DNA of 30,902 nucleotides from Burkholderiales bacterium RIFCSPHIGHO2_12_FULL_61_11 (GTDB taxonomy: Bacteria > Pseudomonadota > Gammaproteobacteria > Burkholderiales > Burkholderiaceae_C): NCBI GenBank assembly GCA_001770785.1, contig MERZ01000114.1, forward strand, positions 1-30,902, read 5' to 3'. Under the pieces are notes generated by a model. The model saw nothing but the letters and a program-made list of their open reading frames with translations, did not search any database and had not been told where the DNA came from. The position numbers and the translations under genes were made by a program. This document shows, piece after piece, positions 7,259 through 21,297 of this stretch. The stretch's first letter is position 1; every line of letters starts with the position of its first letter.

Positions 7259-8383
7259 ATGACCCAGCCCGTCGTCAAGTTACCTGCCCACTATGATCAC
7301 GTAGGCAGCTTTTTGCGCCCCAAATACTTGCTGGAGGCGCGCGAACAAAAAGCCAGGGGCGCGATCAACCCCGCGCAGTTGCGTGTGGTGGAAGACAAGG
7401 CCATCACCGAGATCGTGAAATTTCAGGAAGATGTGGGCTTAAAGAGCATCACGGACGGCGAGTTCCGCCGCACCTACTTTCACATCGACTTTCTGGAGCA
7501 GATCGGTGGCGTGAAAACCGACATCCCGGTGACTATTAAAAGGCCCGACGGGACGCAGGAGCTGGCTCCTCCGGTGATGCGCGTGATCGACAAGGTGCGC
7601 CATGTCAAAGACATTCAGCTGGCGGATTTTCAGTACCTCAAGAGTCAGGTGTCCAAAGGCAACACGCCCAAGGTCACCATCCCATCCCCCACCATGCTGC
7701 ATTTTCGCGGCGGCCGGGCTGGCATCAGCAAGCAGCATTACCCAGAGCTCGACCCTGATTTTTACCAGGACGTCGCCAACGCCTATGGTGACGAGTTGCG
7801 CAGTCTGGCTGGGGCCGGCTGCACCTATGTGCAGATGGACGACACCAATCTTGCCTATCTTTGCGACGAGAAAATGCGCGAAGCCGCGCGCCAACGCGGT
7901 GATGACCCCGACGAGCTGCCACACCGTTACGCAAAATTCATCAACCTGGTGGTGGCGCAAAAGCCGCCCGGAATGTTGCTGGCCATGCACCTGTGCCGCG
8001 GCAACTTCAAAAGCACGCACGCTGCCAGCGGCAATTACGAGCCGGTGGCCGAAGCCCTGCTCAAAGAGATGAACCTGGACGCCTACTTCATGGAGTACGA
8101 CGATGACCGCAGCGGCGACTTCAAACCGCTGCGTTACCTGCCCAAAGGCAAGACCGTGGTGCTGGGTCTGGTGACCACGAAGTTTGGCGCGATGGAAAGC
8201 AAGGACGACCTGAAACGCCGCATTGACGAGGCCGCCCGCTATGCGCCTCTGGAGCAGCTCGCGCTGTCACCGCAGTGCGGTTTCAGCAGTACTGTGCACG
8301 GCAACGACATTGCCGTCGAAGCCCAGCGCGCGAAGCTGCGGCTGGTGGTAGAGACGGCGCAGGAGATTTGGGGCAGCAACTGA
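7259..8383 (+). CDS. MetE-like cobalamin-independent methyltransferase (YxjG/YxjH type)
   Basis: The 374-residue protein resembles the C-terminal catalytic barrel of methionine synthase MetE without the N-terminal half (COG0620, YxjG/YxjH type). The zinc ligands can be placed: H244 and C246 in MHLCRGNF, E279 in MEYDDD and C340 in SPQCGFSS. The E-to-C spacing equals that of MetE. Such stand-alone enzymes move methyl or alkyl groups onto a thiol; the physiological donor and acceptor are unknown here. ATG 7259 was chosen because GGAG lies about six bases upstream and the protein then begins just before the conserved HYDHVGSFLRP. The open frame continues upstream only through the IS6 remnant. The transposase scrap 100 bases upstream means the promoter region may have been rearranged. 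Confidence 0.88.
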   Translation: MTQPVVKLPAHYDHVGSFLRPKYLLEAREQKARGAINPAQLRVVEDKAITEIVKFQEDVGLKSITDGEFRRTYFHIDFLEQIGGVKTDIPVTIKRPDGTQELAPPVMRVIDKVRHVKDIQLADFQYLKSQVSKGNTPKVTIPSPTMLHFRGGRAGISKQHYPELDPDFYQDVANAYGDELRSLAGAGCTYVQMDDTNLAYLCDEKMREAARQRGDDPDELPHRYAKFINLVVAQKPPGMLLAMHLCRGNFKSTHAASGNYEPVAEALLKEMNLDAYFMEYDDDRSGDFKPLRYLPKGKTVVLGLVTTKFGAMESKDDLKRRIDEAARYAPLEQLALSPQCGFSSTVHGNDIAVEAQRAKLRLVVETAQEIWGSN

Positions 8384-8398
8384 TCTAACCCGGCTTGA

Positions 8399-8423
8399 CG
8401 AGCTGGTGCAGTGCACCAGCTCG
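8399..8423. repeat. Perfect 12-bp palindrome downstream of the MetE-like gene
   Basis: CGAGCTGGTGCA and TGCACCAGCTCG (8399-8410 and 8412-8423) are exact reverse complements around a single G. There is no T-tract, so it is not a standard terminator. It could be a protein site or a cruciform at the edge of the cassette cluster. A related GCACCAGCTCAGCC occurs in the attC-like site at 9723-9800. Confidence 0.55.
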
Positions 8424-8498
8424 GTGACCCTCGGTCAGCGAGGGGTCGACTGACTTCTAAAGACTGGAAGCCGACCTTCAGATTTCCGGATACCTGTC

Positions 8499-8588
8499 AT
8501 TCAACGTGAAAATGACCGGCGACCAAGGCCAGGTGCGCGCGCAGTGCGCGGACGCACTTGGGCGTCCGTGTCGATTGCCATGTTAAAC
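8499..8588 (-). other. attC-like recombination site 1
   Basis: This 90-bp site reads, on the plus strand, ATTCAAC at the left edge and GTTAAAC at the right edge (8582-8588), matching RYYYAAC and GTTRRRY exactly. The inner part contains GCGGACGCACTTGGGCGTCCG, a hairpin. It shares TGACCGGCG, CCAGGTGCG and GCGGACGCACTT..GCGTCCGTGT with the site at 9097-9186, as expected of related attC sites. The stop codon of the minus-strand ORF lies in its GTTTAAC core. Confidence 0.72.
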
Positions 8589-9089
8589 CTCAACTCCCGG
8601 ATAGAGCCAGTCGATGACTTGCAAGCGGAATTTGTCAAGCTGCCCTGAAGCACGCGCGAGGCGTTCAAGGTCGGCATCGAATGCGTGCGGCTGAAGTTCC
8701 TCTTCTGACTCCTCTCGTTCCCCCGCCTTACCCCGGAGCTTGGAATTGCGGCGGAGTAGTCCCTCGTTGCCATTGACGTCGATCCACGAGTGGTATCGAG
8801 AGTGGACCATGTCATTCCGCCGTTCCCCTAACTCGTGAAGCTCAGCCATGAGTTTGTGAAATTCAGCCTTCGCTGCGGGATCAGTGTTCGTTCGAATGTC
8901 CACGAACCGAGCAAACAGCACGTCAGCCGTCTTGAGGCGTCTGCTGTACTCCAAGTCATTCACCAAGATTCGCGTGGCCTCGCAATCCCCTCCAGAGAGC
9001 AACTCGAAGAGGTCGTTCACGGCTCCTTCGAGATGCTGGAACAACACGATGAAACGCCCGAGTTGGTGGTATGCGGTGTGCGGCGACAT
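8583..9089 (-). CDS. Cassette ORF: HEPN-like protein of unknown function
   Basis: A 168-residue, mostly helical protein. The N-terminal helix (LGRFIVLFQHLEGAVNDLFEL, about 10-30) and the later ERRNDMVHSRY segment, with R91-N92 and H96, give the R-x4-H arrangement of HEPN-fold proteins, many of which are RNases in toxin-antitoxin and anti-phage systems. An acidic/basic stretch follows (about 115-130), then a last helix ending LDKFRLQVIDWLYPG. The ATG is preceded by the attC-like core and TCAGAC, with only a weak ribosome site. The stop TAA is in the next attC-like core. The HEPN assignment rests on motif and helix pattern only; it could be a non-catalytic relative. No partner antitoxin is encoded in the same cassette. 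Confidence 0.62.
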   Translation of the reverse strand: MSPHTAYHQLGRFIVLFQHLEGAVNDLFELLSGGDCEATRILVNDLEYSRRLKTADVLFARFVDIRTNTDPAAKAEFHKLMAELHELGERRNDMVHSRYHSWIDVNGNEGLLRRNSKLRGKAGEREESEEELQPHAFDADLERLARASGQLDKFRLQVIDWLYPGVEV

Positions 9090-9096
9090 GTCTGAG

Positions 9097-9186
9097 GGTT
9101 AACGTCGGACTTGACCGGCGCACAAGCCAGGTGCGACCGAAGGGAGCGGACGCACTTTTGCGTCCGTGTTGAAGGACTTGTTAGGC
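9097..9186 (-). other. attC-like recombination site 2
   Basis: This 90-bp site has plus-strand GGTTAAC at the left (9097-9103; first variable base deviates) and GTTAGGC at the right (9180-9186, exact GTTRRRY). Inner boxes CTTGACC and GTTGAAG are imperfectly complementary, and AGCGGACGCACTTTTGCGTCCG forms a hairpin. It has the same length as, and extended similarity to, the 8499-8588 site. The TAA stop of the ORF ending at 9181 lies inside GCCTAAC, a classical cassette feature. Confidence 0.78.
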
Positions 9187-9717
9187 ATCAGCCTCACGCA
9201 GCGTGGCAACAAAGTAATCCCACATAAGGCCGATCGCATCCTTCGCGTCTGCCTCCAACATTCGCATGGGATGAATCCTAAGTTTGCGAAACCGTACGCC
9301 CATATTGTGCTTATGATCGGGCTCCTTCAGGTGTGAAAAGGGATTCCTCTTCAATCGAAGCGCGTCCGTACGGGCCAGCCAGTCTTCCGGGAAGACTTTG
9401 TGCTTGCGTGCTATTGCAACAGCGTTTGCGAAGTTCGGACTGTCAGTGACGTGGCCGAGAAGTTGAAGTTCTTCCGCCAGCGTGTGCTCGATGAATGAGG
9501 TTGCCAATAGCAGCGCCGCCACAAAGTGGCCGTCGATAAACGTTTCGCGCGCTTCGGAAAGGATCCGCATCGTTTCAGTGCGTCCAAGGATAGCGCCCGG
9601 GCGACGCTCGTGAAGCGACAACCACTTGATGCGTTCAACGCGAGCGTGCCTGCTGTCAGCGTCAGCCCGCTCCAAGGCCTCTGACAACTGCTCGTCAATT
9701 GAAGTCTCGTTCGCCAT
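9181..9717 (-). CDS. Cassette ORF: HEPN-like protein with RNxxxH motif
   Basis: A 178-residue predicted helical protein. The core ARETFIDGHFVAALLLATSF followed by IEHTLAEELQLLG (about 57-88) resembles the first HEPN helices. LRLKRNPFSHLKEP carries R124-N125 and H129, the conserved R-N-x3-H signature of HEPN RNases and HEPN-associated defence proteins. The ATG starts immediately after the GTTAGCC core of the site at 9723-9800, and the stop TAA is in the next core. It shares the motif but little obvious sequence with the neighbouring cassette protein. The N-terminal about 45 residues are charged and unrecognised. A role in defence or growth control is inference from the family and cassette context. 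Confidence 0.68.
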   Translation of the reverse strand: MANETSIDEQLSEALERADADSRHARVERIKWLSLHERRPGAILGRTETMRILSEARETFIDGHFVAALLLATSFIEHTLAEELQLLGHVTDSPNFANAVAIARKHKVFPEDWLARTDALRLKRNPFSHLKEPDHKHNMGVRFRKLRIHPMRMLEADAKDAIGLMWDYFVATLREADA

Positions 9718-9722
9718 CCGAT

Positions 9723-9800
9723 GGCTAACGCACCAGCTCAGCCGCGGCCCTGACGACGCGAAGCGGCGGCAGGGACGTCGGCTGGAGCGTCTAGTTGGGC
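9723..9800 (-). other. attC-like recombination site 3
   Basis: A 78-bp site with plus-strand GGCTAAC at the left (9723-9729) and GTTGGGC at the right (9794-9800). On the minus strand CAGCCG near one end pairs with CGGCTG near the other, and CCCTG pairs with CAGGG further in, giving an attC-like stem. It differs in sequence from the other two sites. The 3' end of the ORF at 9738-10256 runs into it. Confidence 0.62.
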
Positions 9801-10256
9801 ACCGAAAACACTCTCGGCAACGTTCGAAAGCAGGAAGCGCTCGAACTCGTGCGCGTGAACAAGATTTTCTGTTTTCCGTGAGCGAACCGTAGGGTCCGTG
9901 TACATGTAGATGTGAAGCCGCCCGCTGGACCGCTGCTGGGCATGGGCCTGTAACTCTTGGGGTGTGAAAAGCCAGACTTTCTCTGTTGAAAGATCAGCAA
10001 GTGCCACAAAAGCTGCCGGGGTCGTTTCCGGCACCCACCAATCAAGAGCGAGCTTTCCCTTGCCCCCTCCAGGCTTGGGCTTGAGATTGGTTTTTACCTG
10101 GACAGTGACGGGCTGCGCCCTGATCGAAGAGTACGCGACCAGATCAATTCCGGTATCCGTGCTCATAGGCGCGGATTCAACGCCGAGGAGTAGTAGCCGG
10201 TACTGAACAAGCAGCTCGCCGCATTTACCAATTTGCGCAGTACTCAGCGACACCAT
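9738..10256 (-). CDS. Cassette ORF: PD-(D/E)XK nuclease-like protein
   Basis: The 172-residue product begins MVSLSTAQIGKCGELLVQYR. E14 in the first helix, D38 in TDTGIDLVAYS and Q53-x-K55 in VTVQVKT have the order and spacing of the PD-(D/E)XK nuclease/endonuclease-like fold, with Q in place of the usual D/E of the ExK pair. A strand/helix region with WVPETTPAAFVALADLSTEKVW follows. ATG 10256 was chosen because AGGGAGG lies six bases upstream and the cassette core GTTGGGC lies just beyond; the open frame extends further upstream but through a palindrome. The final about 20 residues (Ala/Arg-rich) are encoded by the attC-like site, so the original C-terminus may have been shorter. Function, possibly DNA cleavage in defence, is inference. 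Confidence 0.66.
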   Translation of the reverse strand: MVSLSTAQIGKCGELLVQYRLLLLGVESAPMSTDTGIDLVAYSSIRAQPVTVQVKTNLKPKPGGGKGKLALDWWVPETTPAAFVALADLSTEKVWLFTPQELQAHAQQRSSGRLHIYMYTDPTVRSRKTENLVHAHEFERFLLSNVAESVFGAQLDAPADVPAAASRRQGRG

Positions 10257-10291
10257 TCGGCCTCCCTCTTCGGCGCCCAACGTAATGTAGA

Positions 10292-10327
10292 TCGTTGGAT
10301 ATTCTGGCATCCCAGAATATCCAACGA
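10292..10327. repeat. Perfect 16-bp stem / 4-nt loop palindrome next to the first cassette
   Basis: TCGTTGGATATTCTGG (10292-10307) and CCAGAATATCCAACGA (10312-10327) are exact reverse complements around CATC. The structure lies 11 bases from the GCCCAAC core at 10275-10281, where an attI or a further attC would be expected. Its own ends (GTTGGAT, ATCCAAC) resemble cassette cores but face the wrong way. Confidence 0.75.
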
Positions 10328-10956
10328 GATATACCCGAATTCCACCTGCGGATGCCGATGACCGGTGAAGCGGCAAGGCGCATGCCGCCTTGGTTCGTAG
10401 CCAATTCCCCAAGAAATTGAAGTCATTTCCATCCCTTCAAACCCTGTCGCCTATCCTGGCGAAATTTGGTCAATGTCGAGTTCATTTTCTCGACGCTTCA
10501 TATTGCCCGACTATAGCCCAGTGGACAACGCATCTGAATATCGGCTTCCGCTGCAATGCAGTCGCTCAAGCGGAAAAGCGACGAAACCCATGTGAATGAC
10601 GGCTTCAGACTGAGCCTGTGTGTGAAAACTCCGGCGAAAACATTCACTTCATATTCGGTTGAAAAATCGACCTCATAGAACCGTCCACAATCGACGATCA
10701 CACCTTCGGCAATGGTTTGGGGACCCTCAATTTTTTGACCGTAGCGCGACCTTTTGTGTTTTCACACCCCCTCGACTGAGAGCCGTCATTCGGGAATTGC
10801 GACTGGCTGTCGGCTGAGTGCCCAAAGGCGACGACATGGAGCATGGAGAAAAGCGGTCGGTCGACCCCTTTGTCGCAGCGCGACTGATCCGCCTCGAAAC
10901 AACGATAACATCCACAGTCACCAAGCCAATACGCCAGCTCCTACCAGGGAATTTCC
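10328..10956. other. Gene-poor stretch between cassette cluster and aldo/keto reductase
   Basis: No convincing gene is seen here on either strand. The short open frames lack recognisable motifs and good ribosome sites. GTGTGTGAAAAC near 10618 has an imperfect inverted counterpart, GTTTTCACAC, near 10763-10772. The region 10780-10880 has the look of degraded repeat-derived DNA. An integrase gene, which would be expected here in a complete integron, is absent. Confidence 0.5.
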
Positions 10957-11952
10957 ATGCAATATCGCAACCTCGGCAAAAGCCCGCTCAAAATCTCCGC
11001 CCTCTGTCTCGGTACCATGATGTTCGCCGATCAGACCGATATCACCGAGGCGCGCAGCATCGTTGCGCATGCCCGGGAGCAGGGTGTCAATTTCATCGAC
11101 ACCGCCGACGTGTACTCCACCGGCAAATCGGAAACGATGGTGGGCGATATTCTCAAGGGCGCACGCGCCGACTGGATCCTCGCCACCAAGATCGGTAACA
11201 AGATGTCCGGCCGGCCGAATGAATCGCAATATTCGCGAAGCTGGATGATGCGCGAGTGTGACGCCAGCCTGCAGCGGCTGGCCACCGACTACATCGACAT
11301 CTATTACCTGCACCGCGACTTCAATGGCATGGACCTGGAAGAACCGCTTCGGGCCATAGACGCGCTGCTGCGGGCGGGCAAGATTCGCTACTGGGGTGTG
11401 TCGAATTTTCGCGGATGGCGCATCGCCGAAGTGGTCCATCTCGCGCGCGAGCTCAACATGCCCGGCCCGGTGGTGTGCCAGCCGTGTTACAACCTGCTCA
11501 ACCGGCAGCCGGAGGTCGAAGTGCTGGCAGCCTGCGCGCATTACGGCATCGGCGTGGTGCCCTATAGCCCGATCGCGCGTGGGGTACTTTCGGGAAAATA
11601 TGCGCCCGGCAGCAAGCCCGCTGAAGGCACCCGGGCCGGACGTGGTGACAAACGCATGATGGAAACGGAATTCCGCGAGGAATCGCTAGTGATCGCCCAG
11701 ACGCTGAAGGCACATTGCGACAGGAAAGGCGTGTCACTGACCCACTTTGCCACCGCTTGGGTTCTGGCAAACAAAGCCGTGAGCGCGGTGATCGCCGGGC
11801 CGCGCACGCTCGCGCAATGGCAGGACTATTTTGCCGCGCTCGATTGCGTAATTAGCGCCGAGGATGAAGCACTCGTGGATTCGCTGGTGAAGCCGGGACA
11901 TCCGGCCACTCCGGGCTACAACGATCCTGCGTATCCGCTAAACCGCCGCTGA
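10957..11952 (+). CDS. Aldo/keto reductase
   Basis: A 331-residue NAD(P)H-dependent oxidoreductase of the aldo/keto reductase superfamily, built on a TIM barrel. The catalytic tetrad can be read as D48 (NFIDTAD), Y53 (ADVYSTGKSE), K78 (ATKIGNK) and H119 (YYLHRD). GVSNFRGW near 139-146 and the C-terminal VIAGPRTLAQWQDY, which contacts the cofactor phosphate region, are intact. The overall pattern is of the YajO/voltage-gated-potassium-channel-beta-like group (AKR family acting on small carbonyls or sugars). AGGGA lies about six bases before ATG 10957. The following remnant of an RpiR-type regulator on the opposite strand suggests a former sugar-metabolism locus; the substrate is unknown. Confidence 0.93.
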   Translation: MQYRNLGKSPLKISALCLGTMMFADQTDITEARSIVAHAREQGVNFIDTADVYSTGKSETMVGDILKGARADWILATKIGNKMSGRPNESQYSRSWMMRECDASLQRLATDYIDIYYLHRDFNGMDLEEPLRAIDALLRAGKIRYWGVSNFRGWRIAEVVHLARELNMPGPVVCQPCYNLLNRQPEVEVLAACAHYGIGVVPYSPIARGVLSGKYAPGSKPAEGTRAGRGDKRMMETEFREESLVIAQTLKAHCDRKGVSLTHFATAWVLANKAVSAVIAGPRTLAQWQDYFAALDCVISAEDEALVDSLVKPGHPATPGYNDPAYPLNRR

Positions 11953-12395: not shown

Positions 12396-13962
<1,567 letters not shown>

Positions 13963-13973
<11 letters not shown>

Positions 13974-15339
13974 AAGCTTGCGCGAGAGCGAAACCGTCGA
14001 GCTGAAAAAAAGCCTGGCCGAACTCAAGGAAGGCTTGGTGTCCATGGTCGCCATTCTGAACAAGCACGGCGCCGGTGAGTTGTGGTTTGGCGTGGCGCCC
14101 AGCGGCAAAGCCGTGGGCCTGGACGTGACCGACAAAACCCTGCGCGACCTGTCCCAAGCCATCGCCGCCCATATCGAACCCAAGGTGTACCCGCACGTCG
14201 CCGCACAAACTGTTGATGGTAAAACCTGCATCCAGGTGCGCTTCAGCGGCCAAGACACGCCGTACTTCGCCCATGGCCGCGCCTGGATGCGCGTGGCCGA
14301 TGAAGATCGCCAGCTCAGCGCCAAAGCGCTGCAAAACCTCATCCTGGTCAAACACCGGCAAGGCCTGCTCTGGGACAACCAGCCCACCGACTTGCCGTTG
14401 ACGGCGCTGGACGAAGCCAAAATCCGCCGCTTCGTCGAGCGCGCCGGTCTGCCGTGGGACACCCCGGCCAACGCCCTGGCCAAGCTGGAACTGATGCAAG
14501 ACGGCCGTCTGCTCAACGCCGCCCGGCTGTTTTTTGCCAAGGCCGCGCCCATTCAGTTGCGCTGCGCCGTGTTTGCCAGCACCGACAGCGCCACCATCAT
14601 CGACCGCCACGACTTTGACGGCGACATCCTGGAGCTGATTGAAGAGGCACAAAAATACATCCTGAAAAACATCCACATTGGCATGCGGCTAGAAGGCATG
14701 TACCGCGTGGACGTGCCCGAAATTTCCACTGCCGCGCTGCGCGAGGCCGTCATCAACGCCTTTTGCCACCGCGACTGGCGCGACCCCGACTACATCCACA
14801 TCGCCGTCTTCAAAGACCGGGTTGAAATCCGCAACCCCGGCATCCTGCTGGACGGCCTGACGATTGACGACATCCGCCAAGGCAACGTCTCGCGCCGTCG
14901 CAATCCGCTGATTGCCGACCTGCTGCGCCGCATCCAGATGGTCGAAGCCTGGGGCCGCGGCATGCCCCTGATGCTGGAAAACGCGCCCACGGTGAAGTTT
15001 CGGCAAGTGGCAGGGCTGTTTATCGCTAGTTTTGATCGACCGTCTTTCCTGGAGGAAGTCCCTCAAAAAACTGTCGATAAGTCCAAAGAAACTACAGGAA
15101 AGACTACAGGAAGGACTACAGGAAAAGCCGCCGAGCTACTGGCCCTTTTGCGCTTGCAGCCCCAAACGACCACCCCCGAACTGGCTGCCGCGCTGGACTT
15201 GACCGTGGACGGCGTGAACTACCACCTGCGCAAGCTGCAGAAAATGGGCTTGTTGCAGCGCGTGGGCGGGAGAAAATCTGGGAATTGGGAAGTCTTGGAG
15301 CCGGCTGATTCGGCGCAAGCTGGGAGGGTTGGGGTATGA
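13963..15339 (+). CDS. AlbA/Schlafen-domain ATP-binding protein in hsd operon
   Basis: A 458-residue protein of the COG2865 type. An N-terminal AlbA_2 (Schlafen-like) domain, about 7-125, starts with [13 protein letters not shown] and contains [21 protein letters not shown] middle RecG-C-terminal-like ATPase segment has [13 protein letters not shown] near 258-268 and [13 protein letters not shown] near 287-299. After a [12 protein letters not shown] linker (about 377-388) a winged helix (about 390-450; [20 protein letters not shown]) binds DNA. Such genes are frequent guests of type I loci and are thought to regulate or add a defence layer; the exact role here is unknown. Its last codons lie in a copy of the hsdM 3' end read in another frame, indicating insertion between hsdM and hsdS. 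Confidence 0.88.
15091..15126 (+). repeat. Three 12-bp tandem repeats in the AlbA gene linker
   Basis: ACTACAGGAAAG, ACTACAGGAAGG and ACTACAGGAAAA follow one another and encode the [12 protein letters not shown] linker before the winged-helix domain. Copy-number change would keep the reading frame. Confidence 0.85.
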
Positions 15340-15341
15340 GT
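15304..15341 (+). repeat. 38-bp direct repeat, copy B (AlbA gene 3' end / hsdS start)
   Basis: This copy matches 13931-13968 at 37 of 38 bases. Here it is read in a different frame ([11 protein letters not shown]) as the C-terminus of the AlbA protein and supplies the ATG of hsdS. It is best explained as a relic of the original hsdM 3' end. Confidence 0.93.
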
Positions 15342-16574
15342 ACTGAGTGGCGCGACTGCACGCTCGGTGAATTTGTGCGGCTCCAGCGGGGACACGACCT
15401 GACTGCATCCGAGCAGCAATCAGGCAATATCCCAATCATGGGGTCAGCAGGCCCAAACGGAACTCACAACAAAGCATTGGCTTACGGACCTGGCGTAGTA
15501 GTTGGCCGTAGCGGTGCATCTGCTGGTCGAGTGCATTTCAGTGCACTTGATTACTGGCCACACAACACATGTTTGTATGTCACCGATTTCCTGGGGAACA
15601 GTCCGCGATTCGCCTACTACCTGCTGCAAACGCTTGATCTGGCCTCATTCAACTCAGGCAGTGCACAACCATCATTGAATCGAAACTTCCTGTATTCGAT
15701 TCCTCTCAAAATTCCGACACGTTTGGAGCAAGATGGCATCGTTGCACTGCTATCGACCCTCGATGACCGCATCGCCCTCCTGCGCGAAACCAACGCCACG
15801 CTCGAAGCCATCGCCCAGGCGCTGTTCAAGTCGTGGTTTGTTGATTTCGACCCCGTCCGCGCCAAAATGGAAGGCCGCGCCCCCGAAGGCATGGGCGAGA
15901 CCACCGCCCGGCTGTTTCCCGACAGCTTCGAGGAATCGGCGCTGGGCTTGGTGCCGAGGGGGTGGCGGGTTGGCACGCTGGGTGAACACACAAGCTACCT
16001 CAGCCGTGGAATTTCACCCAAATATATCGAGGATGGCGGCGTTATTGTCATCAACCAAAAGTGCATTCGAGACTTCTCTCTGGACTTGAGTAAGGCTCGC
16101 CGTCACGACCCAGCACAGAGAAAAATTGATGGTCGAGGGTTGTTAAAAGGCGATATTTTAGTGAATTCAACTGGCGTTGGAACGCTTGGCCGTATCGCGC
16201 AAGTTCTGTCTTTAGATAACCCCGCCATCGTTGATTCGCATGTCACGGTGATGCGTACAGATTCCTCGCTTACCTGGAATTACCTTGGGCTATCAATAAT
16301 GCGCAGGCAGGCAGAAATTGAAGGCATGGGCGAAGGCTCAACAGGGCAGACCGAGTTAAGTCGAGGAAAACTGGCTATTCTCAAATTGCTCATTCCTCCT
16401 ATTGCAGTACTTCAAAATTTTGATGACGTTGTGTTGCCATTGCGTGAACGTTTCTCAGCAAACCAGACGCAAGCACAATCCCTCGCCACCCTGCGCGACA
16501 CCCTGCTGCCGCGCCTGATCTCGGGCCAGCTGCGGCTGCCGGACGCCGAAGCCGCCGAGGAAGCACTTGCATAA
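15336..16574 (+). CDS. hsdS: Type I restriction-modification specificity subunit
   Basis: HsdS provides the DNA target recognition for both methylation and restriction. The 412-residue protein has two target-recognition domains (about 5-130 and 200-350). They alternate with two conserved helical spacers: LLSTLDDRIALLRETNATLE followed by AIAQALFKSWFVDFDPVRAKM (about 138-185), and NQTQAQSLATLRDTLLPRLI (about 375-400). The recognition domains are visibly richer in A/T than the spacers, as expected if they were exchanged by recombination. ATG overlaps the preceding stop by four bases (ATGA). The bound sequence cannot be predicted from here. Confidence 0.95.
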   Translation: MSTEWRDCTLGEFVRLQRGHDLTASEQQSGNIPIMGSAGPNGTHNKALAYGPGVVVGRSGASAGRVHFSALDYWPHNTCLYVTDFLGNSPRFAYYLLQTLDLASFNSGSAQPSLNRNFLYSIPLKIPTRLEQDGIVALLSTLDDRIALLRETNATLEAIAQALFKSWFVDFDPVRAKMEGRAPEGMGETTARLFPDSFEESALGLVPRGWRVGTLGEHTSYLSRGISPKYIEDGGVIVINQKCIRDFSLDLSKARRHDPAQRKIDGRGLLKGDILVNSTGVGTLGRIAQVLSLDNPAIVDSHVTVMRTDSSLTWNYLGLSIMRRQAEIEGMGEGSTGQTELSRGKLAILKLLIPPIAVLQNFDDVVLPLRERFSANQTQAQSLATLRDTLLPRLISGQLRLPDAEAAEEALA

Positions 16575-16590
16575 ATTCAACGCCCTGCAG

Positions 16591-16650
16591 TCACTATGCT
16601 TTCAATAGCTTCTCACGCACATTCCACGGGGGCTACAGGCCAGTTTGGCA
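16591..16650. repeat. Comamonadaceae-type intergenic repeat
   Basis: The segment has CAATAGCTTCTCACGC and GGGGGCTACAGGCCAGTTTG separated by a few bases. It resembles the abundant 'AATAGCT...CGCA...GGGGCTACAGGCCA' element found between genes in Rhodoferax, Polaromonas and Acidovorax genomes. The recognition is from memory of the family, not from a search. Confidence 0.5.
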
Positions 16651-16701
16651 CTTAATTTCGCGCAGTATCTCCGCCAACGGCCTCACCTCAGGGTGGAAAC
16701 G

Positions 16702-16754
16702 ATGTGTATAGAAATTTCCCCTTTTTATACACATGAGCGCTATCATGTGAAAAA
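16702..16754 (+). promoter_or_regulatory. Putative regulatory region upstream of fic
   Basis: ATGTGTATA (16702-16710) and TATACACAT (16726-16734) form a 9-bp inverted repeat with a 15-base spacer. CATGA/TCATG and the element TATCATGTGAAAAA (16741-16754) follow. The same 14 bases recur upstream of hsdR at 17914-17927. These are candidate operator or promoter sequences for fic; no clear -35/-10 pair could be assigned. Confidence 0.45.
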
Positions 16755-16797
16755 AATTGATTTTTCTTTACATTATTAGCCCGATTCAGAGGTTTCC

Positions 16798-17880
16798 ATG
16801 TCGTTTGACCGCCAGCTTCCTTTCAACGATTTGCCTTTGCTGCCACCGCCGGTTGATCTGGAAACCAAGGCGGTGCTCAAGCAGGTCATTGCCGCTCGCA
16901 CAGCGCTGGCAGAGCTCAAAGGCGCTGCCCAGCTTCTGCCCAACCAAGGGGTTTTGATTCAGGCCATTGGTCTGCAAGAAGCCAAGCTGTCGTCCGAGAT
17001 TGAAAACATCGTGACCACCAACGACGACTTGTTTCGCGGTTTCGCCAACGATGGCGAGGGTGCCAGTGCGCAGACCAAGGAAGTGTTGCGCTACAAGGAC
17101 GCGCTCTGGCAGGGGCACCAGTGGATCAAGCAGGGCATGCCCCTGACCACGCGACTTTTTGAAACCCTTTACCAGACGGTCAAGCAAGCGGACGATGGGG
17201 TGCCGCGTACATCAGGCACCAAGCTTGCCAACCCTGCTACCGGCGAGGTGGTGTATTGCCCGCCTGAGGGCGAAACCGTGATTCGGGACAAGCTGGCCAA
17301 TCTGGAAAGGTTTATAAATGAGCCCTCTGAGCTTGACCCGCTGGTTCGCATGGCGGTGATGCACTATCAGTTTGAAGCCATTCACCCGTTTCCAGACGGC
17401 AATGGCCGGGTAGGGCGGATTTTGAACATTCTGCAATTGCAGTCTGAAGCTTTGCTGGACGTGCCCATTCTCTACCTGTCGGGTTACATCATTGAAAACA
17501 AGGGCGCCTATTACCGTGGTTTGACGGCGGTGACCGAACGCGGGGAGTGGGAAGCATGGGTGTTGTACATGCTGCGTGGGGTCGAGACGATGGCCCACTT
17601 CACCCGCCAGCGCATCCGAGCCGTGATGGACCTGATGCAGACCGCCCGCGTACAAGCTGAAAAAGTGTTGCCCAAAGTGCAGGTTCCCGCCATTTTGGAC
17701 GTGGTGTTTCGACACCCCTATTGCAAAGTACGTTTTCTGGAGGAAGCAGGCTTGGGCTCCAGGCCCACCTGCACCAAATATTTGCGTGCATTGGTAGCGG
17801 CAGGTTTGCTGCGTGAACAAGCCGTCTGGCGCGAAAACTATTTCATCAATGACGCATTTTTTGAGGCACTGGCGCGATGA
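16798..17880 (+). CDS. Fic-domain protein (probable AMP transferase), class II
   Basis: A 360-residue Fic protein. The active-site loop HPFPDGNGRVGR (196-207) matches HPFx(D/E)GNGRxxR with catalytic H196, so it is expected to transfer AMP from ATP to target hydroxyls. An N-terminal inhibitory motif, S65-x3-E69-N70 (SSEIEN), marks it as a self-inhibited class II enzyme. The C-terminal region (about 295-360) looks like a winged helix (KVRFLEEAGLGSRPTCTKYLRALVAAGLL). ATG 16798 has GAGG upstream. It sits between hsdS and hsdR on the same strand but with its own AT-rich flanks, so it may be transcribed separately. Fic proteins are known guests of type I loci; the target here is unknown. Confidence 0.93.
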   Translation: MSFDRQLPFNDLPLLPPPVDLETKAVLKQVIAARTALAELKGAAQLLPNQGVLIQAIGLQEAKLSSEIENIVTTNDDLFRGFANDGEGASAQTKEVLRYKDALWQGHQWIKQGMPLTTRLFETLYQTVKQADDGVPRTSGTKLANPATGEVVYCPPEGETVIRDKLANLERFINEPSELDPLVRMAVMHYQFEAIHPFPDGNGRVGRILNILQLQSEALLDVPILYLSGYIIENKGAYYRGLTAVTERGEWEAWVLYMLRGVETMAHFTRQRIRAVMDLMQTARVQAEKVLPKVQVPAILDVVFRHPYCKVRFLEEAGLGSRPTCTKYLRALVAAGLLREQAVWRENYFINDAFFEALAR

Positions 17881-17985
17881 AATGTCATGTGCAGGGTTTG
17901 AACATGATCCAAATATCATGTGAAAAATATGACATATATTTATCATGAAAGGCCTGTCGTGCTAACTTTCTTCGCATGACCCACC
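17881..17985 (+). promoter_or_regulatory. AT-rich region upstream of hsdR
   Basis: This 105-base gap has repeated TCATG-like words and TATCATGTGAAAAA at 17914-17927, identical to 16741-16754 before fic. The gene downstream probably has its own promoter here, and a shared regulator acting on fic and hsdR is possible. Inference from repeats only. Confidence 0.4.
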
Positions 17986-20900
17986 ATGACCGAAGACCAA
18001 CTCGAACAAGAAACGCTGACCTGGCTGGCCGATGTGGGCTACACCCACGCTTTTGGCCCCGACATTGCCCAGGACGGCCCCACCCCTGAGCGTGCCAGCT
18101 ATGGCCAGGTGCTGCTGACTGGGCGGCTGCGTGCCGCCATCGACCGGCTCAACCCCACCATCCCTGCCGCCGCCCGCGAAGACGCGATCAAGCAGGTACT
18201 CGACCTGGGCATTCCCGCACTGCTGACGGCCAACCGGCATTTCCACCGCTTGCTGGTGGCCGGTGTGCCGGTGCAGTACCAAAAGGACGGCGAGACCCGG
18301 GGCGACCTTGTGCGGCTGATCGACTGGGCAGCGCCTGCCCACAACAACTGGCTGGCGGTGAATCAGTTCAGCATCAAAGGCCCGCACCACACGCGGCGGC
18401 CCGACATCATCCTGTTCGTCAACGGCCTGCCGCTGGTGCTGCTGGAGCTGAAGAATCCGGCCGACCTGAACGCCGATGTGTGGAAGGCGTACGACCAGAT
18501 TCAGACCTACAAGGAGCAGATTCCCGACGTGTTCCAGACCAACGAAATGCTGGTCATCTCGGACGGCACTGAGGCGCTGCTGGGTTCACTGTCCGCAGAC
18601 CCGGAGCGCTTCATGGCCTGGCGCACCATCGATGGCGTCACGCTGGACCCGCTGGGCGAGTTCAACGAGCTGCAGACGCTGGTGCGCGGCGTGCTGGCGC
18701 CCAAGTATCTGCTGGACTACCTGCGCTACTTTGTGCTGTTCGAGGACGACGGCGGCATCGTCAAAAAGATAGCGGGCTACCACCAGTTTCACGCGGTGCG
18801 TCTGGCGATTGGCCAGGTGGTGGCGGCTTCGCGCCCCGGCGGCTCTCAAAAAGGCGGCGTGGTCTGGCACACGCAGGGCAGCGGCAAGAGCATCACCATG
18901 ACCTGCTTTGCCGCCCGCGTGATGCAGGAACCGGCGATGGAGAACCCGACCATCGTCGTCATCACCGACCGCAACGATCTGGACGGCCAGTTGTTTGGCG
19001 TGTTCAGCCTGGCGCAGGATTTGTTGCGCGAGCAGCCGGTGCAGGCGCGCACAAGGCAGGAGCTGCGCAGCCTTTTGGCCAACCGGCCTTCGGGCGGCAT
19101 CGTGTTTGCCACCATCCAGAAGTTCATGCCGGGGGAAGACGAAGACATGTTCCCGGTGCTGTCTGCCAGGGGCAACATCGTGGTGATCGCCGACGAGGCG
19201 CACCGCACGCAGTACGGCTTTGAGGCCAAGCTCAAAACGCGCAAGTCTTCAGTAGGTCGGGTTAGCCCGCGGGGCGTAACCCGACAAGGCGACGAACCGT
19301 TGTCGGGTTACGCTGCGCTAACCCGACCTACCAAAGTCATAGCTACCGGCGACGGCATGACGCCTGAACACCGAGTTGAATTTGCGCCGCCAGACTACCT
19401 CGTTCGCCCTGAGTTTGTCGAAGGGCTTCGACAAACTCAGCCCGAACGGTTCAATGAACATTACCAAGCGGGCTACGCCCAGCACCTGCGCGACGCCTTG
19501 CCGCATGCCACCTTTGTTGCCTTCACCGGCACGCCCGTCAGCAGCACCGATCGCGACACCCGGGCCGTGTTTGGCGACTACATCCATGTCTATGACATGC
19601 AGCAGGCCAAGGAAGACGGCGCCACGGTCGCGATCTACTACGAGTCGCGCCTGGCCAAGCTCAGCTTGAATGAGGCCGATCTGCCGCAGCTCGACGAAGA
19701 GGTGGACGAGCTGGCCGAGGACGACGAAGAAAGCCAGCAAGCCAGGCTCAAAAGCCGCTGGGCCGCGCTGGAGAAGGTCGTGGGAGCAGAACCCCGTGTC
19801 GCCAGCGTGGCAGCCGACCTGGTGGCCCACTTCGAGGAACGCAACAGCACGCAGACCGGCAAAGCCATGGTGGTGGCCATGAGCCGCGACATCTGCGTGC
19901 ATCTGTACAACGAAATCGTGAAACTGCGTCCCGACTGGCATGACGCTGACCCCGAGCGGGGCGCCATCAAGATCGTCATGACCGGCTCGGCCAGTGACAA
20001 GCCTCTGCTGCGCCCGCACATCTACAGCGCCCAGACCAAAAAGCGGCTGGAAAAGCGCTTCAAAGACCCGGCCGACCCGCTGCGCCTGGTGATCGTGCGC
20101 GACATGTGGCTGACCGGCTTTGACGCGCCCTGCGTGCACACCCTGTACGTGGACAAGCCCATGAAGGGCCACAACCTGATGCAGGCGATTGCCCGCGTCA
20201 ACCGCGTGTTCAAGGACAAGCAAGGCGGCCTGGTGGTGGACTACATCGGCATCGGCAACGAGCTGAAAGCCGCCATGAAGGAGTACACCGCCAGTCAAGG
20301 CCGGGGCCGCCCGACGGTGGATGCCCACGAAGCCTACAGCGTGCTGGCTGAAAAGTTGGACGTGCTGCGCGCCATGCTGCACGGCTTTGATTACAGCGGC
20401 TTCCTCACCGGCGGTCACAAGACGCTGGCAGGCGCCGCCAACCATGTGCTGGGTCTCAAAACAGGCGAAACCCGTGACGGCAAAAAACGCTTTGCCGACA
20501 CCGCGCTGGCCATGAGCCAAGCCTTTACCCTGTGCTGCACATTGGACGAAGCCAAGACGGTGCGCGAGGAAGTCGCTTTTTTGCAGGGCGTCAAAGTCAT
20601 CCTGACCAAGAAGGACACCACGGCCAAAAAGCGCACCGACGAGGCTAGAGAGCTGGCCATCCGCCAGGTCATCAGCCAGGCGGTGGTGTCCGAGAGCGTG
20701 GTGGATATTTTTGACGCCGTCGGCCTGGACAAGCCCAATATCGGCCTGCTGGACGACGAATTTCTGGCCCAGGTGAAGAGCCTGCCAGAGAGAAATCTGG
20801 CGGTGGAACTGCTGGAGCGCCTGATGGAAGGTGAAATCAAAAGCCGCTTCGCCAGCAACGTGGTGCAGAACCGCAAGTTCTCAGAGCTGCTGGCCAGCGT

Positions 20901-21297
20901 CATCACCCGCTACCAGAACCGCTCCATCGAAACCGCACAGGTGATGGAAGAGCTGGTTGAGATGGCGAAGAAGTTTCGCGAAGCGGCAACGCGCGGCGAA
21001 ACCTTGGGACTGACCGAGGACGAAGTGCGCTTTTATGACGCTCTGGCCAACAACGAGGCCGCCGTTCGCGAGCTGACCGATGAAACCCTCAAGAAGATCG
21101 CCCACGAGCTGACCGAGAACCTGCGGCAGAGCCTGACTGTGGACTGGTCAGAGCGCGAAAGCGTGCGTGCCAAGCTGCGTTTGATGGTCAAGCGCATTTT
21201 GCGCAAATACAAGTATCCGCCAGACCTGCAGGACGCTGCGGTGGAGCTGGTGCTGCAGCAGGCGCAGGTGATGGGGGAGAGCTGGACGGAGATGTAA
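17986..21297 (+). CDS. hsdR: Type I restriction endonuclease subunit
   Basis: HsdR is the translocating, cleaving subunit. The 1103-residue protein has the N-terminal nuclease domain with D140, E154 and K156 ([20 protein letters not shown]). Walker A is QGSGKS near 297, DEAH is D403-H406, AFTGTP lies near 513, and LTGFDAP and AIARVNRVF form the second RecA domain. A C-terminal helical HsdM-contact domain ends at 1103. Residues about 421-495 (225 bp, frame kept) between FEAKLKTRK and [11 protein letters not shown] are made of two palindromic repeat units that normal HsdR proteins lack; without them the length would be about 1028, ordinary for the family. The insertion lies just after the DEAH motif, so activity could be affected. 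Confidence 0.95.
19251..19332. repeat. Palindromic repeat unit 1 inside hsdR
   Basis: GTAGGTCGGGTTAGC (19252-19266) is the exact reverse complement of GCTAACCCGACCTAC (19317-19331). Two smaller hairpins (GTCGGGTTA with GTAACCCGAC, and TGTCGGGTTA with TAACCCGAC) lie nested between them. This 'GTCGGGTTA...TAACCCGAC' type is usually an intergenic repeat. Here it is translated as [18 protein letters not shown] and following residues. Confidence 0.88.
19401..19448. repeat. Palindromic repeat unit 2 inside hsdR
   Basis: The arms 19401-19423 (beginning CGTTCGCCCTGAGTTTGTCG) and 19426-19448 (ending CTCAGCCCGAACG) pair with two mismatches in 23. The 'GTTCGCCCTGAG-TTGTCGAAG' motif is a widespread repeat of beta- and gammaproteobacteria. 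It is read in frame as [16 protein letters not shown]. Confidence 0.88.

Follow-up and report, generated by a model that had tools for sequence, protein, structure and literature searches.

In MITE-flanked integron mobilisation units, part of an integron is moved without a transposase of its own. A cluster of attC sites that lacks an integron integrase is termed a CALIN, and PMC9024848 reports a proposal that such integrase-less cassette arrays are degraded integrons. According to the same paper, attI sites outside class 1 are poorly described and are not detected by IntegronFinder 2.0, so that array leaders built on such sites would go unseen. Delta-attI cassettes are the subject of PMC12901181.

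We analysed a window of 30,902 bp (the whole stretch of DNA under study) from Burkholderiales bacterium RIFCSPHIGHO2_12_FULL_61_11, whose genus is taken to be Polaromonas. The window carries an array of three cassettes that is an attI-headed CALIN. The cassette cluster had been noted in a sequence-only reading, which overlooked the leader with an attI and a truncated intI (10267-10563); this leader, present again at other loci of the genus and on a plasmid, is the more unusual part of the locus. The earlier observation was confirmed, and its interpretation was partly supported. We consider it probable that the locus is an integrase-less integron, made up of an attI, what may be a cassette promoter (Pc), a stub left from the lost intI and three unrelated single-gene cassettes. 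Its features are as follows.

8452..8505, minus strand: conserved distal end of the array, beyond its last attC (GTTGAATGACAGGTATC...CAGTCTTTAGAAGTC), with related ends in G016:C67, G029:C34 and on the JS666 plasmid
8499..8588, minus strand: attC of cassette 3, 90 bp; covariance model E 8.4e-16
8583..9089, minus strand: cassette 3 gene (C), 168 aa; HEPN-type motif RRNDMVH, R91 and H96
9097..9186, minus strand: attC of cassette 2, 90 bp; covariance model E 2.8e-15
9181..9717, minus strand: cassette 2 gene (B), 178 aa; HEPN-type Rx4H motif RNPFSH, R124 and H129
9723..9800, minus strand: attC of cassette 1, 78 bp; covariance model E 7e-10; also from the simple scan
9738..10256, minus strand: cassette 1 gene (A), 172 aa; PD-(D/E)XK-like, E14, D38, Q53 and K55
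10267..10563, minus strand: orphan leader of ~290 bp with attI, promoter candidate and intI 5' remnant; common to other loci of the genus
10275..10330, minus strand: attI; predicted R core GTTGGGC at 10281-10275, L box CCAACG at 10298-10293 and a further box inside the hairpin 10292-10327
10440..10518, plus strand: likely remnant of the first ~26 intI codons; AACCCTGTCGCCTATC and ACTATAGCC at the 54-nt spacing of intact intI
10510..10538, minus strand: Pc candidate TTCAGA-17-TATAGT; consensus match, 0.9 expected by chance

All three attC sites are real. They had been proposed as attC-like sites at these coordinates, and exactly these three ranked first to third over the whole window with a covariance model run unfiltered, the fourth-best match having an E value of 0.11. 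The model, which was purpose-built and is neither HattCI nor IntegronFinder, accepted all three. It was trained on ten attC sites from other genomes and none from the window or its own genome; five of the ten were picked with a pattern that two of the window sites also fit, which biases the result, and the remaining five, scan hits chosen by hand, belong to the same 87-bp length class, so that the model is skewed towards this type. Although it lies outside the training pattern, the 78-bp site was matched at the E value given above. A simple attC scan placed the same sites first, second and third among 52 candidates (22.9, 22.8 and 19.6), with the second-ranked one called in the opposite orientation. 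Since 0.03 chance hits per window were obtained from random sequence at scores of 22 or above and 1.4 at 19 or above, the middle site of the array (19.6) is not significant by the simple scan alone; a stricter first version of the scan recovered one of the three.

The structure of the sites was that of a cassette array. The two 90-bp sites, described earlier as related, shared 77% identity over 65 bases, and each of the three folded better as DNA than at least 196 of 200 shuffles on one strand. Classical attC sites have two unpaired bases in the L'' arm; read by eye from the sequence, the L'' arm of each window site has two, a C and an A on the top strand. The cassette geometry also held up, with the stops of genes B (gene end 9181) and C (8583) lying inside the R'' cores GCCTAAC and GTTTAAC, respectively, and the last ~22 codons of gene A consisting of attC DNA.

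The array is headed by a recognisable attI, as judged from sequence likeness. The R core at 10281-10275 forms the first cassette junction and the end of the leader attI; the boxes were assigned by reading the sequence. The hairpin at 10292-10327 is a perfect 16-bp inverted repeat with a 4-nt loop, and related imperfect hairpins occur in other leaders. The window attI was 79% identical over 57 bp to an attI on contig C376 of the same genome, where it adjoins three pieces of a broken integron integrase, and was also similar to the attI that accompanies the intact integrase in G074 and to those beside intI pieces in G016:C308 and G029:C11. It is because of this likeness to attI sites beside intI or its pieces in the same genus that we read 10275-10330 as attI. 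Likewise, a 53-bp stretch of the attI of G016:C299 is 100% identical in G028:C27, where it lies beside an intI piece. An analysis of conserved RNA structure in the leader gave an unfavourable overall covariation term (+1.59); the pairs of the attI hairpin did vary together among leaders in this analysis.

Upstream of the attI, positions 10440-10518 are likely the stub of a lost intI. AACCCTGTCGCCTATC and ACTATAGCC occur as exact words, at exactly 54 bases from each other, within the initial codons of the G074 integrase, which is intact, and the reading rests on these two exact blocks at equal spacing. The middle between them has diverged and is not alignable to intact intI; over 79 bp the ungapped identity was 37, no better than chance given a best value of 38 elsewhere in the window. 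Read in the direction of the cassettes, the ACTATAGCC block contains TATAGT, the -10 element of the Pc candidate, which is kept in 10 of the 11 leaders compared below and absent from G104:C46. The candidate is the sole promoter-like site in 8300-10960, a weak match with the chance expectation listed above. Pc is typically placed within intI, according to a Xanthomonas study (PMC12444791), which would explain why this end of intI is kept.

That the array lacks an integrase, as the sequence-only reading had it, agreed with our searches. No integron integrase match was found on the contig of the window, and an intact intI adjoining the window attI is absent, with just the probable stub in its place. 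A tblastn search (E 1e-3) found no intI in ten leader loci, and the best match in the JS666 stretch had an E value of 0.34. Among 61 genus genomes (own included), the profile TIGR02249 scored above its cut-off in eight (G012, G014, G035, G062, G069, G072, G074 and G080), which included none of the six leader-bearing genomes in the search set (G000, G016, G020, G024, G029 and G036; G102 and G104 stood outside it). Many of these genomes, own included, are draft or incomplete assemblies in which an integrase could be missed; G024 consists of nine contigs and is rated 100% complete. The window's own genome holds a second integron remnant on G000:C376 (L009 1-720), with attI at 40-96 and intI in three pieces, the middle missing.

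The leader was found repeatedly within the genus. Leader or attI matches occurred in 8 of 61 relatives, all eight within the genus, to which 37 of the 61 belong (own included), and a second query, run on 87 genus genomes, gave matches in 10. We compared 11 leader loci: the window, G016:C299, G016:C67, G024:C9, G102:C1, G020:C80, G020:C286, G029:C34, G104:C46, G036:C1 and plasmid 1 of Polaromonas sp. JS666, which is typed conjugative. Matches to the attI part or to a short piece were left out (G003:C79, G008:C247, G029:C11, G016:C308, G000:C376, G121:C27, G024:C3, G028:C27 and G074:C36). A plasmid search with two leader queries gave one partial match each; the match on CJ2 covered the attI part and was not counted. 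This attI-like fragment lies at ~46053-46147 of the CJ2 plasmid (NC_008759.1), with no convincing attC nearby.

An attI or attachment core was recognisable in 8 of the 11 loci and was broken or lost in G102:C1, G020:C286 and G036:C1. By our own reading, the attI of the G102 leader seems broken (L187 6894-7955, ~8300), and the adjoining gene resembles an insertion-sequence transposase. The leader was followed by attC in eight loci (the window, G016:C299, G016:C67, G024:C9, G102:C1, G029:C34, G104:C46 and JS666), although the training set of the covariance model included the attC of G102 and, at each of G016:C67 and JS666, one of the two sites. Of the three loci without a following attC, G020:C80 has a contig end 1.4 kb away, and G020:C286 and G036:C1 have lost attI. 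The eight first cassette genes were unrelated to one another (blastp, best E 0.82; JS666 by the annotated gene start). Among proteins from the other leader arrays, 5 of 15 matched Pfam at 0.01, namely a TIR protein, a WapI-type immunity protein, a phosphatase-like protein, an ankyrin protein and an Mrr restriction enzyme, the last standing after a leader that has lost its attI; 3 of 10 tested proteins matched PADLOC profiles.

The recurrence of the leader with unrelated first cassettes suggests that the platform spread and that its cargo changed after intI was lost, probably by means of an integrase from elsewhere. Under our preferred reading of the locus as an integrase-less integron, the candidate promoter in the leader would drive the minus-strand cassette genes, the nearest most strongly, and cassettes would enter or leave only when an integron integrase is present in trans. 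Such an enzyme might come from another integron that is now broken, such as the one on contig C376 with its intI pieces, or from incoming DNA, and the leader would have moved as one unit, by copying or by transfer, from site to site and from species to species. A broader proposal, which we put forward tentatively as a possibility short of an even chance, is that solo attI platforms are a class of their own among the non-autonomous integrons of Polaromonas and are propagated as such: a compact attI and promoter without the former integrase would spread between chromosomes and plasmids and go on exchanging cassettes by means of integrases borrowed in trans.

Comparisons between loci indicate that the leader has moved. 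Leaders were 95.2% identical between G016 and G024 and 95.3% between G016 and G102, with serS at 84.2% and 84.6%, respectively; between the sister species G024 and G102, serS was 96.8% and the leaders 94.8% identical. The leader was more alike than third codon positions of serS in 13 of 15 pairs, for which either transfer or constraint could account, and not in the other two. G024 and G102 have the array at different places, each being without a leader at the place occupied in the other; no clean empty site and no target duplication were seen at these alternative sites, where the compared sequences carry other DNA, and the pattern may reflect old copies lost in turn instead of movement. The upstream flanks of ten chromosomal or contig loci had no long similarity in common, except that the arrays of G016:C67 and G104:C46, in two species, both lie in the same priA region, where they are oppositely oriented. 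Upstream of G016:C67 there is also a stretch of 340 bp that is found again downstream in G102. For the window, no empty site was found: none of 80 reductase loci and none of 29 other metE-like loci (the metE-like loci extending just ~1.5 kb to each side) had both neighbours of the array, a metE-like gene and an aldo-keto reductase.

The same evidence weighs on two other explanations of the leader. Each array could descend from a complete integron at that place whose intI was lost independently, the leader being the part that survived. Decay of this kind has precedent, as intI pseudogenes made up about a third of intI genes in a 2008 survey (PMC2426708), and in Polaromonas it is in keeping with the partial intI beside attI in the window's own C376, G016:C308 and G029:C11 and with the attI lost or broken in 3 of 11 leaders. 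However, the leaders are of one form, with a similar non-intI sequence joined before GGGCTATAGT in most of them; the distal end is also common to four loci, its 17-mer GTTGAACGACTGCTATC being exact in G016:C67, G029:C34 and JS666 and having three mismatches in the window; and leaders of 95% identity stand at unrelated sites. One leader form with like ends and such identity at unrelated sites is not expected from independent decay, which we therefore consider unlikely. The conserved left and right ends would also suit a transposon-like unit, in which the leader, the cassettes and the distal end would together be a non-autonomous element, bounded by terminal inverted repeats and moved by an outside transposase, as would the presence of the leader on a plasmid and at several chromosomal sites. 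In the window the ends of the array (8466-8483 and 10532-10549) form an 18-bp inverted repeat with 16 matches, which only 0.003 of shuffles equalled. As a general feature, however, terminal inverted repeats were rejected, because the window was the only one of four loci in which they were significant (0.92, 0.83 and 0.48 of shuffles as good in the other three), and no target duplication was seen at the compared sites; we regard such a unit as distinctly improbable.

About 2 kb from the array, at 12396-21297 of the window, lies a type I restriction locus with hsdM, an AlbA/ATPase-HTH protein, hsdS, a SoFic-type Fic protein and hsdR. Palindromic repeat DNA at 19231-19450 lies inside the hsdR frame and is read through in frame; a similar repeat occurs at L125 501-597, right at the end of the intI match of G016:C308.

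The types assigned earlier to the cargo, two HEPN-motif proteins and one PD-(D/E)XK-like protein, were borne out by conservation among relatives. In protein A, D38, Q53 and K55 were invariant and E14 was kept in at least 90% of 32 aligned sequences out of 1088 relatives found, and 27 of the 32 matched Mrr_cat_2 weakly (best 6.5e-4). R124 and H129 of protein B were invariant in all 31 aligned of 34 relatives found, as were R91 and H96 of protein C in all 31 aligned of 232, so that both proteins have the conserved Rx4-6H motif of the HEPN family. Five of the 31 relatives of C matched HEPN_RiboL-PSP weakly (best 0.0041); for relatives of B, the matches were single and weak. No match above the curated Pfam cut-off was obtained for A, B or C, their relatives matching weakly, and a PDB sequence search for structures of B and C gave nothing useful. 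A profile comparison of B with C gave a probability of 1.4%, with no likeness beyond the motif itself.

The cargo is three independent single-gene cassettes and not a system. Relatives of A were found in 10 plasmid records, of B in 50 and of C in none, in different genera; 7 of the 50 with B relatives covered most of its length, all from Xanthomonas. Gene C, the one searched for fixation in the family, had relatives in 2 of 399 family genomes (own included), the other being 45% identical and inside an attC array; this gene is thus not fixed in relatives. Relatives of A stood beside attC in two of seven viral-collection loci; in L251 the relative is flanked by two sites, and in L253 it precedes one. 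The L251 record (IMGVR_UViG_2834908352_000001) has 13 attC matches in 8.5 kb and is perhaps a misfiled chromosomal integron. No adjoining attC was found for the A relative on a Variovorax plasmid, for two plasmid relatives of B that were examined, or for the sole viral-collection relative of C.

Nuclease-like and HEPN-motif proteins are frequent in defence. One could accordingly take the three genes as a single undescribed defence system, given that A is nuclease-like, that B and C have HEPN motifs and that the restriction locus is close by. Against this, relatives of A, B and C occur apart, A and C having some that form lone cassettes at other loci, and PADLOC gave no match for B or C and a best E of 0.034 for A, with no known-defence profile matched; a joint system is highly improbable, and the earlier suggestion of a functional set was not supported. 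The anti-phage role proposed with it survives as a possibility for each gene, although no profile library names it. A defence or toxin role is plausible for each protein taken alone. The three most likely act singly, A as a PD-(D/E)XK nuclease-type protein and B and C as HEPN-type proteins (possible RNases), all being candidate toxins or anti-phage effectors. In Vibrio cholerae, 20% of function-unknown cassettes were anti-phage in work cited in PMC12444791, which gives a fair prior for A, B and C.

A common, transferred leader with changing cargo suggests that some integrase-less arrays are working platforms. Such leaders allow a direct test of the idea that an integron can persist on integrases borrowed from elsewhere. 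If the broader proposal is true, solo attI platforms would give a host new genes without its keeping the enzyme. The arrays are also a source of small cassette genes to screen, and defence-type domains are present in some of these.

Compared with a complete integron, the window has an attI with predicted L and R boxes and is without an intact adjacent intI. Its cargo resembles the HEPN proteins and PD-(D/E)XK/Mrr-like nucleases of Pfam in the invariant Rx4H motifs and the E/D/QxK residues, and differs from them in having no Pfam match above the curated cut-off. MITE-flanked units are alike in that an integron part moved without its own transposase, and differ in that terminal repeats are unconfirmed here, being seen in one of four loci. 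We found no paper on integrase-less attI platforms in Polaromonas in the open-licence PMC literature. Integrons with intI pseudogenes share the loss of integrase function, but in PMC2426708 the pseudogenes are usually not common to related species, whereas here one truncated form occurs in several. In the Shewanella prophage M16-3, a CALIN with its own attI likewise has an attI at the head of an integrase-less array; in the paper on phage integrons that describes it (PMC9892861), this is a single case, and the prophage has an intact integron as well, while the leader with its likely intI stub is present in several species and on a plasmid. As in the CALINs described in PMC9024848, the window has at least two attC sites (here three) and no integrase nearby, but its array is headed by a recognisable attI leader that is common to several loci.
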